Assembly (NCBI GenBank): GCA_944381485.1
Contig: CALWLI010000004.1
Location: 1-64,000 of the forward strand
Direction: 5' to 3'
Length of the DNA stretch: 64,000 bases
Source: an uncultured Lachnospiraceae bacterium
GTDB taxonomy: Bacteria; Bacillota; Clostridia; Lachnospirales; Lachnospiraceae
Positions 39,267 through 49,420 of the stretch are shown here, piece after piece (the first letter of the stretch is position 1; each line of letters starts with the position of its first letter). The position numbers and the translations under genes were made by a program. Below the pieces are notes generated by a model. The model ran no database searches. It was given only the letters and a program-made list of their open reading frames with translations, and was not told the DNA's origin.

Positions 39267-40115
39267 TTAAAACAGCGGAACCACAGCTCCGTCATAGCTG
39301 TCCTCTATGAAGCTCTTTACCTCATCGCTCTTAAGGGCATCAAGGAGGGCTTTTGTCTTCTCGTTCTCCTCATCCCCCTCTCTTACAGCCACTACATTGC
39401 CGTAGGTAACTGCAGCCTCGGAGTCTGAGGCCTCAACAGCCAGGGCGTCAGATACCTTCAAGCCCGCATCTATCGCGTAGTTGCCGTTTATGACAGCTAT
39501 GTCCACATCCTGCAGCGAGAGGGGTATCTGAGCCGCCTCCACCTCAAGTATGTCAAGGTTTAGGGGATTTTCCTCTATGTCATTTCTTGTGGCGTCAAGC
39601 CCCGCTCCCTCCTTAAGCTTAAGAAGTCCCTGAGCTTCAAGAAGAAGGAGAGCTCTGGCCTCGTTGGTGGTGTCGTTGGGTACCGCCACAGTGGCTCCCT
39701 CCGAAAGCTCGTCCAAGGAAGATACCTTTCCGCCGTAGATGCCGAAGGGCTCATAGTGGATAGCCCCTGCGCTCGCAAGATGTGTGCCCTGCTCCTTGTT
39801 AAACTGCTCAAGGTAGGGGAGATGCTGGAAGTAGTTGGCGTCAAGCTCTCCGTCCTCAAGGGCGATATTGGGCTGTACATAGTCTGTGTACTCAACTATC
39901 TTAAGGGCGTAGCCCTCCTTCTCAAGAAGGGGCTTTGCGGCCTCAAGTATCTCCCCGTGGGGAGCGGGGCTTGCCCCAACCGTGATCTCTGTAAGCTCCG
40001 GAGACTTGTCTTCCTCGGCCTTCTCGGATTTCTCCCCACCTGAGCAGGCTGAGAGAGCGACGGCAGCAAGGAGAGCTGCAGCTGTGATCTTAAGTTTCAG
40101 TTCATGTCTTTTCAT
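39267..40115 (-). CDS. metQ: Methionine ABC transporter substrate-binding lipoprotein MetQ
   Basis: A 282-residue NlpA-family lipoprotein. The lipobox LSAC puts the acylated Cys at residue 24 and would anchor it on the outer membrane face. Family segments ITVGASPAPHGEIL, EYTDYVQPNIALEDGELDANYFQHLPYL and VPNDTTNEARALLLLEAQGL are present in order. It is last in the metN-metI-metQ operon, with GAGGAG before the ATG. Confidence 0.94.
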   Translation of the reverse strand: MKRHELKLKITAAALLAAVALSACSGGEKSEKAEEDKSPELTEITVGASPAPHGEILEAAKPLLEKEGYALKIVEYTDYVQPNIALEDGELDANYFQHLPYLEQFNKEQGTHLASAGAIHYEPFGIYGGKVSSLDELSEGATVAVPNDTTNEARALLLLEAQGLLKLKEGAGLDATRNDIEENPLNLDILEVEAAQIPLSLQDVDIAVINGNYAIDAGLKVSDALAVEASDSEAAVTYGNVVAVREGDEENEKTKALLDALKSDEVKSFIEDSYDGAVVPLF

Positions 40116-40176: not shown

Positions 40177-40839
40177 TTAATTTATCCTCTTGTCAGTGCA
40201 CTTTGCCAGCTTTAAGCCCAGCTCCTGGATCAGCTGCACAAGGAGCATGAGAAGTATGACGGCCCCCCACATTATGACAGGCTCCCTTCTGTAGTAGCCG
40301 TAGTTGATGGCTATGGCTCCCAGGCCGCCTCCCCCAAGGCTTCCCGCCATGGCGGAGTAGCCGAGTATAGTGGTCACAGAGATGGCAGCTCCCACAAGGA
40401 GAGAGGGCTTAGACTCGGGTATCAGCGCCTTGAGTATTATCTGCAGTGTGGAGGCGCCCATGGACTTTGCCGCCTCTATGACTCCCTTGTCCACCTCCTT
40501 GAAGGAGGACTCCGCCATCCTTGCCACATAGGGGGCGGCGGAGATGACAAGCGGGGGAATCACAGCCTTTGCCCCGAGAGTGGTCCCCACCGTAAGCCTT
40601 GTAAGGGGGAGAGCGATCACTATCATTATCAGGAAGGGCACTGAGCGAAGCAGGTTAGTCACAAGCCCCAGGCACTTATTTACAAAGGGGAGAGGACAGA
40701 TGCCTCCCTCGTCAGTCACCGCAAGGATCACCCCCAGGGGCAGCCCTATAAGGTAGGAGATGAGTGATGAGAGAAGCACCATGTACACAGTGGAGCCTAT
40801 CTCAGTGCGAAACAGTTCAATAAATTCAGAATTAAGCAT
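40177..40839 (-). CDS. metI: Methionine ABC transporter permease MetI
   Basis: A 220-residue inner-membrane permease with about five helices. The EAA loop (EAAKSMGASTLQIILKALIPESKPSL) and the family stretch LLRSVPFLIMIVIALPLTRLTVGT are clear. Its start overlaps the end of metN by 8 bp, with AGGAGGTAAGG upstream. Confidence 0.94.
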   Translation of the reverse strand: MLNSEFIELFRTEIGSTVYMVLLSSLISYLIGLPLGVILAVTDEGGICPLPFVNKCLGLVTNLLRSVPFLIMIVIALPLTRLTVGTTLGAKAVIPPLVISAAPYVARMAESSFKEVDKGVIEAAKSMGASTLQIILKALIPESKPSLLVGAAISVTTILGYSAMAGSLGGGGLGAIAINYGYYRREPVIMWGAVILLMLLVQLIQELGLKLAKCTDKRIN

Positions 40840-41635
40840 TTGTAAACCTTACCTCCTGTGATAAAACTTCCATGTAAGCTCCCCCTATTAGCCTTCTTCC
40901 TATATCGGACTTGGGATCTGAGAAAACCTCCCTGACACTTCCCGACTCAACTATCCTGCTGTTGTGGATGACGGCTACTCTGTCACAGACAGCCTCTATG
41001 ACTCTCATCTCGTGGGTTATGATGATGACTGTTATGCCGAGCTCTCTGTTTATGCGCTTAAGGAGGGCCAGGATGGACTTTGTCGTGTCCGGGTCGAGAG
41101 CGGAGGTGGCCTCATCGCACAGAAGCAGCTTGGGCTCGGCGGCTATGGCCCTTGCTATGGCCACCCTCTGCTTCTGGCCTCCTGAGAGCTGAGAGGGGTA
41201 GGCCTTCGCCTTTTCCGAGAGGCCCACAAGCTCAAGTAGCCTCTCAGCCCTGGAGTAGGCCTCCTTTTTCGGAACCTTTGCCAGCTCCAGGGGAAAGAGC
41301 ACGTTCCTTATGACATTTCTCTGCTCCAAAAGGTTGAACTGTTGAAATATCATGCCCATGGACTGCCTGGCAAGGCGCTGCTCCCTTGCTTTAAGGGAGG
41401 AGAGCTCCTTTCCGTCAAAGACGACCTTCCCCGAATCGGGAGTTTCCAGGAGATTCATACACCTTACCAGAGTGCTCTTTCCGGCCCCCGACAGGCCTAT
41501 GATTCCGAAGATCTCCGACCTTGAAATGCTCAAGTTTATGTCCTCAAGAGCCTTCACCGGGCCTGAGGAGGTCTTAAACTCCTTTGAAAGCTCCCTCAGC
41601 TCTATGATGGGTCTGCTGTCCTTATCCGTGTTCAT
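40832..41635 (-). CDS. metN: Methionine ABC transporter ATPase MetN, without NIL domain
   Basis: A 267-residue ATPase: Walker A GLSGAGKST near 47-55, QQFNLLEQRNV Q-loop, signature [14 protein letters not shown] and Walker [17 protein letters not shown]. Full-length MetN is about 340 residues, with a C-terminal NIL/ACT domain that binds methionine for trans-inhibition. Here the chain ends about 20 residues after the ATPase core. The short end is not a recent frameshift, since metI follows in overlap. AGGAGGAAAGGAG precedes the ATG. Expression is probably set by the leader described at 41709-42081. Confidence 0.93.
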   Translation of the reverse strand: MNTDKDSRPIIELRELSKEFKTSSGPVKALEDINLSISRSEIFGIIGLSGAGKSTLVRCMNLLETPDSGKVVFDGKELSSLKAREQRLARQSMGMIFQQFNLLEQRNVIRNVLFPLELAKVPKKEAYSRAERLLELVGLSEKAKAYPSQLSGGQKQRVAIARAIAAEPKLLLCDEATSALDPDTTKSILALLKRINRELGITVIIITHEMRVIEAVCDRVAVIHNSRIVESGSVREVFSDPKSDIGRRLIGGAYMEVLSQEVRFTNA

Positions 41636-41708
41636 TTAAAGCTCCTTTCCTCCTGAAAAACTGAATAAACAAAAGTATGAGACATACGATCAAGCAAAAG
41701 CTTGAAAC

Positions 41709-41744
41709 AAAAAAATCGCAGGCCTGCATGCACAGACCTGCGAT
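41709..41744 (-). terminator. Attenuator terminator in the metNIQ leader
   Basis: On the minus strand ATCGCAGGTCTG (41744-41733) pairs with CAGGCCTGCGAT (41726-41715) around a 6-nt loop, followed by T6-T7. It sits between the leader peptide ORF and metN (start 41635), so full expression of the transporter needs read-through. Confidence 0.85.
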
Positions 41745-41846
41745 GATAATATTAAAAGCTGCAAAATACTTACAAAAAACTTGCAAAAGATACTTACAGT
41801 CTTATAAAGTCATATCCTCGACTTGGGCTCAGATTAAAATACTGAT

Positions 41847-41914
41847 TTCCCGGACGCTCTATAAATCATATAAAAATACTGATCAATAAAAGCCGCTTAA
41901 AGAGCGTTCGGAAG
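41847..41914 (-). promoter_or_regulatory. Leader stem formed by the end of the leader ORF
   Basis: CTTCCGAACGCTCTTTAA (41914-41897, the last leader codons and stop) can pair with TTTATAGAGCGTCCGGGAA (41865-41847), with a bulge and one or two mismatches. A ribosome reaching the leader stop codon would disrupt it. Confidence 0.6.
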
Positions 41915-42019
41915 GTCCATGCTTTTCGTATGAAATTCAGGCATAGCTGACATTCGGCACATGTACATCATGCCGAACATAACTGCCATATTCATCATCA
42001 TACGAGAAGTATGGAACAT
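41897..42019 (-). CDS. Methionine-rich leader peptide of metNIQ
   Basis: A 40-residue ORF with 12 Met (positions 1, 7, 8, 9, 11, 14, 17, 18, 20, 23, 26, 34). The core reads RMMMNMAVMFGMMYMCRM. AAGGGG lies 5 nt before the ATG at 42019; the stop is TAA. It follows a consensus promoter and precedes a terminator and the methionine transporter genes. This is the layout of a translated attenuation leader like those of trp or his, with Met codons as the sensor. The peptide itself probably has no function. An in-frame upstream ATG at 42034 lacks a Shine-Dalgarno and would add five residues. Confidence 0.85.
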   Translation of the reverse strand: MFHTSRMMMNMAVMFGMMYMCRMSAMPEFHTKSMDLPNAL

Positions 42020-42052
42020 AAGAGCCCCTTTCATTTGAGTTTTATGAGCTGA

Positions 42053-42081
42053 ATCATAAATGAAAGGCAGAAATTTGTCAA
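42053..42081 (-). promoter_or_regulatory. metNIQ promoter
   Basis: On the minus strand, TTGACA (42081-42076) and TATGAT (42058-42053) with an exact 17-bp spacer. Transcription would begin near 42046, about 27 nt before the Met-rich leader ORF. Confidence 0.85.
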
Positions 42082-49109: not shown

Positions 49110-49314
49110 TGTATGAGGGACTTGGACTTATATATTTTTCGCAATATATACTAATTTAAACGGATAGAATTGTGCAATATATATAAGACATTTCAGGGCG
49201 CTTCGTAAAATGAGACAAAAAGGGTGAAAAAATTCACAATATGCCCTCCGGAGGTTGTCATATCCCCTCTTTTCCCTGCGATTGACATTTTTCAGGGCTC
49301 TGCTATACTATAGT

Positions 49315-49398
49315 AGAATCCCGGGGAGTCAAATGACTGAGAGTGAGAAATCTGACCCGTTGAACCTGAACCGGATAATACCGGCGGAGGGAGTGAGG
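49315..49398 (+). promoter_or_regulatory. TPP riboswitch aptamer
   Basis: The THI-element core words are present in order: CGGGGAGTC, ACTGAGAG, GACCCGTTGAACCTGAACC, GGATAATACCGGCGGAGGGA. It senses thiamine pyrophosphate and stands before ykoF-ykoE-ykoDC. Confidence 0.95.
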
Positions 49399-49420
49399 AA
49401 TTTTTTGTTATGAGGAAATT

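Follow-up and report, generated by a model that had tools for sequence, protein, structure and literature searches.

A probable ribosome-mediated methionine-codon attenuator upstream of metNIQ in a Lachnospiraceae bacterium

Comparison of leader sequences suggests that the metNIQ operon in the window (the whole 64,000-nt stretch of DNA analysed here) is very probably controlled by a ribosome-mediated transcription attenuator sensing charged elongator tRNA-Met. The initial annotation had proposed a Met-codon attenuator at this locus, and the proposal is supported by recurrence of the leader before metN, by the in-frame position of its ATG triplets and by paired changes in its helices. What the comparison shows directly is the set of leader parts, the repeated occurrence of these upstream of metN and, for some of the lineages, base pairing that survives paired changes. 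To the earlier proposal we add an anti-antiterminator (1:2), a hairpin within the Met cluster (P0) and an interchange with Met T-boxes.

Classical leader-peptide attenuators are textbook devices for several amino acids, and those of the trp/his type follow a 1:2/2:3/3:4 scheme of RNA arms. Like the trp/his type, the window leader has regulatory codons within a short ORF, alternative helices and a terminator, and the operon behind it handles the amino acid specified by these codons; it differs in its putative Met specificity, its occurrence in Lachnospiraceae, the transport function of the operon and the presence, among the clustered regulatory codons, of an additional hairpin that shows paired changes.

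We infer translation, stalling, kinetic competition and the inducing signal as follows. The leader would be transcribed from its own promoter and then translated. When charged elongator tRNA-Met is short, a ribosome would stall on the early Met codons (7-11) and cover arm 1; arm 2 would thereby be freed to pair with the emerging arm 3, the terminator would not form and metNIQ would be transcribed. When methionine is plentiful, the ribosome would reach the stop codon and, where arm 2 forms part of the end of the ORF, as it does in the window, cover this arm; alternatively, it would leave, and the 1:2 helix would re-form. Either way, arm 3 would then join arm 4 and transcription would end.

The leader and the genes behind it

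The promoter, the leader Shine-Dalgarno sequence, the 40-codon ORF with 12 Met codons, the terminator and the metNIQ genes described in the initial annotation were all recovered at the positions it had given (Table 1). The leader ORF putatively encodes MFHTSRMMMNMAVMFGMMYMCRMSAMPEFHTKSMDLPNAL, and 14 ATG codons are observed in the window ORF when its in-frame upstream extension is included. Among 5000 dinucleotide shuffles of the upstream 607 nt, not one placed 8 or more ATG codons in a single ORF of 10-90 codons; the Met-rich ORF of the window is far outside chance. The terminator, separated from the leader stop codon by 152 nt, lies in a stretch (41750-41709) with a folding energy of -22.3 kcal/mol (z = -6.28 relative to 200 shuffles).

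Table 1. Positions of the leader elements and of metNIQ in the window
Feature	Position	Strand	Basis
Promoter TTGACA-N17-TATGAT	42053..42081	-	11/12 consensus match
Shine-Dalgarno AAGGGG of leader ORF	42025..42030	-	read from sequence
Leader ORF, 40 codons, 12 Met including start	41897..42019	-	ATG at 42019; homologues in relatives
Arm 1, codons 2-9 over Met 7-9	41994..42015	-	window ORF fold
Hairpin P0 within Met cluster, core TTCGGCA...TGCCGAA	41950..41980	-	fold and paired changes
Arm 2 GCATGGACCT, codons 33-36, antiterminator 5' strand	41913..41922	-	pairing with arm 3
Arm 3 AGGTCTGTGC, terminator 5' arm and loop, antiterminator 3' strand	41730..41739	-	pairing with arm 2
Intrinsic terminator (3:4), then T run	41715..41744	-	13 bp stem
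metN, ATP-binding subunit, 267 aa	40832..41635	-	best NCBIfam model MetN
metI, permease	40177..40839	-	best NCBIfam model MetI
metQ, substrate-binding lipoprotein	39267..40115	-	best NCBIfam model MetQ

No Rfam family reached its gathering score on the window leader, including T-box (RF00230) and SAM (RF00162), consistent with the earlier remark that an S-box or T-box core is absent; the best permissive match was to the L20 leader, at 25.1 bits against a cut-off of 58.7. With no matches, an S-box, a T-box or another Rfam RNA was ruled out as the identity of the leader. Cysteine sensing was also rejected: although relatives repeatedly have Cys codons, there is one in the window ORF versus 12 Met codons. 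Elsewhere in the window, a TPP riboswitch is located at 49312-49410 on the plus strand.

MetN, MetI and MetQ are the best NCBIfam models for the three genes, yet all three score below the curated cut-offs; the Pfam match of MetQ to Lipoprotein_9 (NlpA) is above its cut-off. The window MetN (267 aa) and that of locus L009 (274 aa) are short compared with the 337-350 aa found in 40/44 leader-bearing relatives, among which L042, L046 and L059 are the other exceptions. In their C-terminal part, MetN proteins carry a methionine-binding regulatory domain. In the window protein this part appears to be absent, and the transporter may therefore be free of direct feedback inhibition.

Alternative pairings in the window and in relatives

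The initial annotation had paired 41922-41913 with 41739-41730, and the duplex stands as claimed: GCATGGACCT and AGGTCTGTGC pair at 10 positions, two of them wobbles. The same annotation had proposed a candidate second stem, between the leader stop region (41914-41897) and 41865-41847. In relatives, arm 2, typically UGUAUGGAUU, is located close to the end of the ORF, and its partner, typically AGUCYGUGCA, comprises the terminator 5' arm and loop. A strict arm motif occurs in 27/59 leaders (19 unique triples), and a looser one in 37/59 (duplicates kept, window left out). Across the 19 unique leaders, 95.3% of cells in 2:3 are paired, versus at most 60.0% when the arms are slid, part of this pairing being preset by the selection of leaders through motifs for both arms. 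The four double-change cells and the covariation score were matched by 0/500 shuffles, pairs with double changes by 6/500 and further pair types by 97/500, a comparison in which related sequences may exceed shuffles without any structure. When the MQ group is taken by itself (16 unique leaders), 357/2000 shuffles reach its 2:3 pairing; support for the predicted 2:3 helix comes from comparison between lineages, not from within the largest lineage. Two leaders outside the arm definition, L105 and L109, were located by the same motif, and in both 2:3 is paired at 10/10 positions, with 1:2 paired at 11/13 and 13/13. A C-G to U-A exchange and wobble changes distinguish arms 2 and 3 of the window from their counterparts in L009/L097, which belong to the same genus.

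Antiterminators are weak or unclear in the MYNSKS and MFAAKA lineages. In MFAAKA leaders, the best duplex of terminator arm and leader end has -8.9 to -12.9 kcal/mol and falls in the same place in 7/7 (values without a null), and the pairing probability lies under that of most shuffles in 4/7; L063, of a type related to MFAAKA, ranks 1.00. In L059 the arm sequences are unrelated and the 1:2 and 2:3 topology is the same, according to a maximising search without its own null.

Arm 1 of the window (41994-42015) pairs with 41936-41916, masking half of arm 2, and the fold of the leader ORF, with P0 nested in 1:2, has a z of -3.07 (0/200 shuffles equally stable). The corresponding strand in relatives covers codons 6-10, typically CCAUGCAGAUGAA, and pairs with UUCAUCUGUAUGG, which overlaps arm 2. 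This 1:2 helix is 81.8% paired versus at most 38.1% when slid, and its covariation score was matched by 0/500 shuffles, its pairs with double changes by 26/500 and its further pair types by 153/500. Within the MQ group, 1:2 pairing was reached by 33/2000 shuffles, a weak signal.

Hairpin P0 was found in 55/59 leaders (not L038, L046, L059 and L065), of which 23 are unique. These are 97.1% paired at P0 versus at most 42.0% when slid, although the pieces were selected with a peptide pattern in which the Cys codon is constant, so that the two pairs with the first two bases of this codon are largely given. In four of the six pairs, both partners vary between relatives; the covariation score was matched by 0/500 shuffles and the pairs with double changes by 6/500. 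G16/R22 is replaced by S16/C22 where G-C gives way to A-U, and in the Arg codon the third base in most cases tracks the second base of codon 15. Leader peptides are identical across two genome collections (L095/L015, L096/L066, L097/L009, L099/L021, L102/L047, L110/L012 and L111/L010), and the genomes are therefore not all independent; the conservation counts for 2:3, 1:2 and P0 were made on unique sequences.

These changes in P0 bear on whether the peptide, rather than its codons, could stall the ribosome. In 23 aligned leaders, positions 1, 11 and 21 (M, M and C) never vary and positions 7 and 20 hardly do, as might be expected of a nascent-chain arrest peptide in which the leader sequence (e.g., its GM..MCRM part) would stall the ribosome for a ligand, methionine or SAM, and operate the same RNA switch. 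However, G16, C21 and R22 are also explained by P0, the codons of which covary (GGC/CGT, AGC/TGT and GAC/TGT), and peptide-specific arrest is less likely because the P0 codons show these paired changes. Furthermore, the number (6-13) and spacing of Met residues vary among leaders, and other metN copies carry AUG-specifier T-boxes, which read tRNA charging. We consider the arrest peptide improbable. Since P0 nested in 1:2 is a sizeable ribosome-free structure, it could alternatively belong to an undescribed riboswitch that binds Met, SAM or a tRNA, with the Met ORF being secondary. Yet P0 and arm 1 are situated within the Met-rich frame, the leader has no Rfam match and the helices identified are simple, which makes such a riboswitch extremely unlikely.

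Folding models of the proposed switch

Modelled transcripts ended in the terminator loop, and P(2:3) denotes the probability of antiterminator pairing. In the window, P(2:3) was 0.93-0.98 with a ribosome at codons 7-11, 0.66 without a ribosome and 0.00 with a ribosome at the stop codon. The intermediate value without a ribosome means that the off state is not clean, and 1:2 in the window competes only partly. Stalls at codons 14-26 gave 0.66-0.81 if the RNA behind the ribosome may pair and 0.98 if it may not. In the full window transcript at equilibrium, the terminator was dominant in every modelled state (0.92-0.98); antitermination must therefore be kinetic. Among the 37/59 leaders modelled (the others, the window among them, were omitted for want of a motif or terminator), mean P(2:3) was 0.61 for a ribosome stalled at codon 9, 0.14 without a ribosome and 0.45 with the ribosome at the stop codon. 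With this last mean, many leaders must depend on 1:2 re-forming after release.

A motif-free test on 51 unique leaders, from which L009, L097 and L065 were omitted (terminator score < 18), gave 0.68 for stalled leaders, 0.47 without a ribosome and 0.53 for shuffled sequences, with a modest mean rank of 0.73. Ranks of 0.95 or more were obtained for 19/51; no excess was seen in most leaders of the MYNSKS and MFAAKA lineages or in several of the MQ type. Terminator-arm pairing in the window ranked 0.82 among 40 shuffles. Taken alone this pairing is unremarkable; what is remarkable is its recurrence and the paired changes in relatives.

Occurrence among relatives, precedents and other methionine sensors

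Loci were fetched by MetQ similarity (the best 80 of 368 confirmed relatives), and 73/80 had metN with a readable upstream region; metN was absent from L026, L032, L081 and L083 and cut in L058, L067 and L080. A Met-rich leader ORF precedes metN at 44 of the 73 loci and a T-box lies directly before it at 6, while 23 have neither, with the metN start uncertain in three of these (L053, L060 and L074, where 3-15 codons are shown). L065, which has enough Met codons by the 5-Met criterion but no good Shine-Dalgarno sequence or terminator, was classed as leaderless, and L046 and L059 were included in the 44 despite short, divergent leaders; that of L059, at -208 to -145 before metN, has 20 codons with Met and Cys. 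The Rfam scan covered 25/29 leaderless loci (not L073, L078, L086 and L088) and 8/44 leader-bearing loci, and in these 8 there was no T-box or SAM match. According to record labels, most of the leader-bearing sequences come from Lachnospiraceae genera or from clostridial MAGs of uncertain family. L043, L044 and L049 are labelled Paenibacillaceae, and their leaders are nearly identical to those of Lacrimispora.

The 50 unique leader ORFs have 20-59 codons and 6-13 Met, with a mean Met fraction of 29%, and their ATG triplets number 505 in frame versus 16 and 26 in the other two frames. In all relatives with enough upstream sequence for scoring (42/42), the highest-scoring promoter within 110 nt of the leader start codon consists of TTGACA separated by 17 nt from a hexamer that begins with TA, with agreement at 10 or 11 of 12 consensus positions. 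Terminator-like hairpins were found at 44/44 leader loci by at least one of two scripts, the relatives being assessed without a null. An SD-like sequence (broad pattern) precedes 49/50 ORFs and, with the frame kept, the ORF looks translated, as would also be the case for a functional Met-rich microprotein (e.g., metal-binding) followed by an ordinary terminator. However, the leader peptide has no Pfam match, C-terminal parts cannot be aligned between lineages, and pairs between the terminator arm and the leader 3' region change together; we give the microprotein hardly any credence.

The initial annotation had set out a pattern in which Met codons, terminator and antiterminator pairing persist while the peptide is otherwise free to vary. 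Among relatives, Met codons, promoter and terminator were indeed kept while much of the peptide varied, but the antiterminator pairing only in part (27/59 leaders with the strict motif). The refuting pattern, a terminator kept with the Met ORF lost, was found in one relative, L016. This locus has no Met-rich ORF or Rfam match before metN (1625-2075), and a TTGACA-N17-TACAAT promoter and a terminator-like hairpin can be recognized by eye; it is apparently a shortened leader. L057 has neither leader ORF nor terminator.

A profile built from 23 leader peptides and run over whole genomes matched 15/299 family genomes, including that of the window, at one place each. All 15 matches are directly upstream of metN (L105 confirmed), and 9/15 matched peptides were absent from the 23 used for the profile. 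The RNA architecture would fit any stall over arm 1, and a translation-coupled attenuator without Met specificity could in principle free metNIQ upon any slowing of the ribosome, Met richness being otherwise caused. This is very unlikely given the mean Met content of 29% in the 50 unique ORFs, the strong frame preference and the position of 15/15 profile matches before metN.

A class-level search of 391 genomes retrieved the genome of the window and one more of the same family, in which the leader is followed, by eye, by a metN start. Within the genus, the leader occurs in 4/25 genomes, the peptides of all four being already in the profile; these are exactly the genomes in which MetQ shares at least 78% identity along almost its full length. 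One genome (G700) has an 86% MetQ fragment at a contig start, with the upstream region not visible, and the remaining MetQ matches in the genus have 61% identity or less. The leader of the same-genus genome G117 is identical to that of L009. MetQ-type lipoproteins are encoded by 170/299 family genomes, compared with 15 that carry the leader, so only a minority of the family has this device.

The type of switch is known, and methionine specificity is scarcely described. The his ribosome-mediated attenuation mechanism is described in the available part of PMC9413887, and leader peptides for histidine are known in Firmicutes (available parts of PMC2965389 and PMC9413887). These are likewise leader-peptide attenuators, in some cases where relatives carry T-boxes, but they concern histidine and, in the same parts of those sources, Bacillus, Peptostreptococcaceae, Lutispora and Erysipelotrichales. 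The closest precedent is Streptomyces lividans metL, a predicted Met-codon leader before the same operon, metNIQ; it has 29 aa, two Met besides the start and a leaderless start, and its authors report no typical Rho-independent terminator, with no antiterminator described in the part of the article available (PMC8079986). The initial annotation knew of no well-described Met-codon attenuator in Clostridia, and we found none in the literature covered; the metL prediction, as far as that source was available, means that the idea of a Met leader nevertheless has a precedent, though not a clostridial one. That was the single example of a Met leader attenuator in the literature covered, a scope that most subscription papers fell outside. 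Nothing on a Met leader was found in the available parts of PMC3766115 and PMC9373788, and PMC1262725, in its available part, reports no conserved RNA structure at the methionine operons of the Actinobacteria studied.

T-boxes with an AUG specifier precede metN at L027, L036, L071, L079, L085 and L087 and at a paralogue in the genome of the window; the T-box of L074 is not before metN. GAA-N-AUG is present in 7/7 metN T-boxes examined, its AUG being taken as the specifier. T-boxes bind tRNA directly. The Met T-box is found with the same operon, in the same position at other loci, and probably shares the signal, Met-tRNA charging; it differs from the window leader, which has no T-box match, in this direct binding. 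The genome of the window has four T-boxes, one with an AUG specifier before the metN paralogue (56% identical), and a single SAM riboswitch match, the ORF behind which is presumably metK. The SAM (S-box) riboswitch, also a device of methionine-related control, is thus present in the genome and not on the window leader. Methionine functions in this genome thus appear to be served by three different types of sensor.

If the attenuator operates as proposed, ribosome stalling would be usable for an amino acid that also starts translation, and a Met leader could occupy the place where other metN copies have a tRNA-binding T-box. The leader is a directly testable cis-element for methionine sensing. 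A further, doubtful possibility is a band-pass sensor, with moderate elongator tRNA-Met shortage opening metNIQ and severe shortage shutting it again, in a Met-attenuator family exchangeable with Met T-boxes. Since Met is also the initiator, severe shortage would halt initiation as well and leave the ribosome-free 1:2/P0 structure. Lachnospiraceae would then have a Met-specific, T-box-exchangeable attenuator family with a non-monotonic response.

On contig C10 of G000, at ~158389-161429, a second metN and metI-like and MetQ-like genes lie behind an AUG-specifier T-box, and a TPP riboswitch is located nearby on the strand opposite to this second metN locus.
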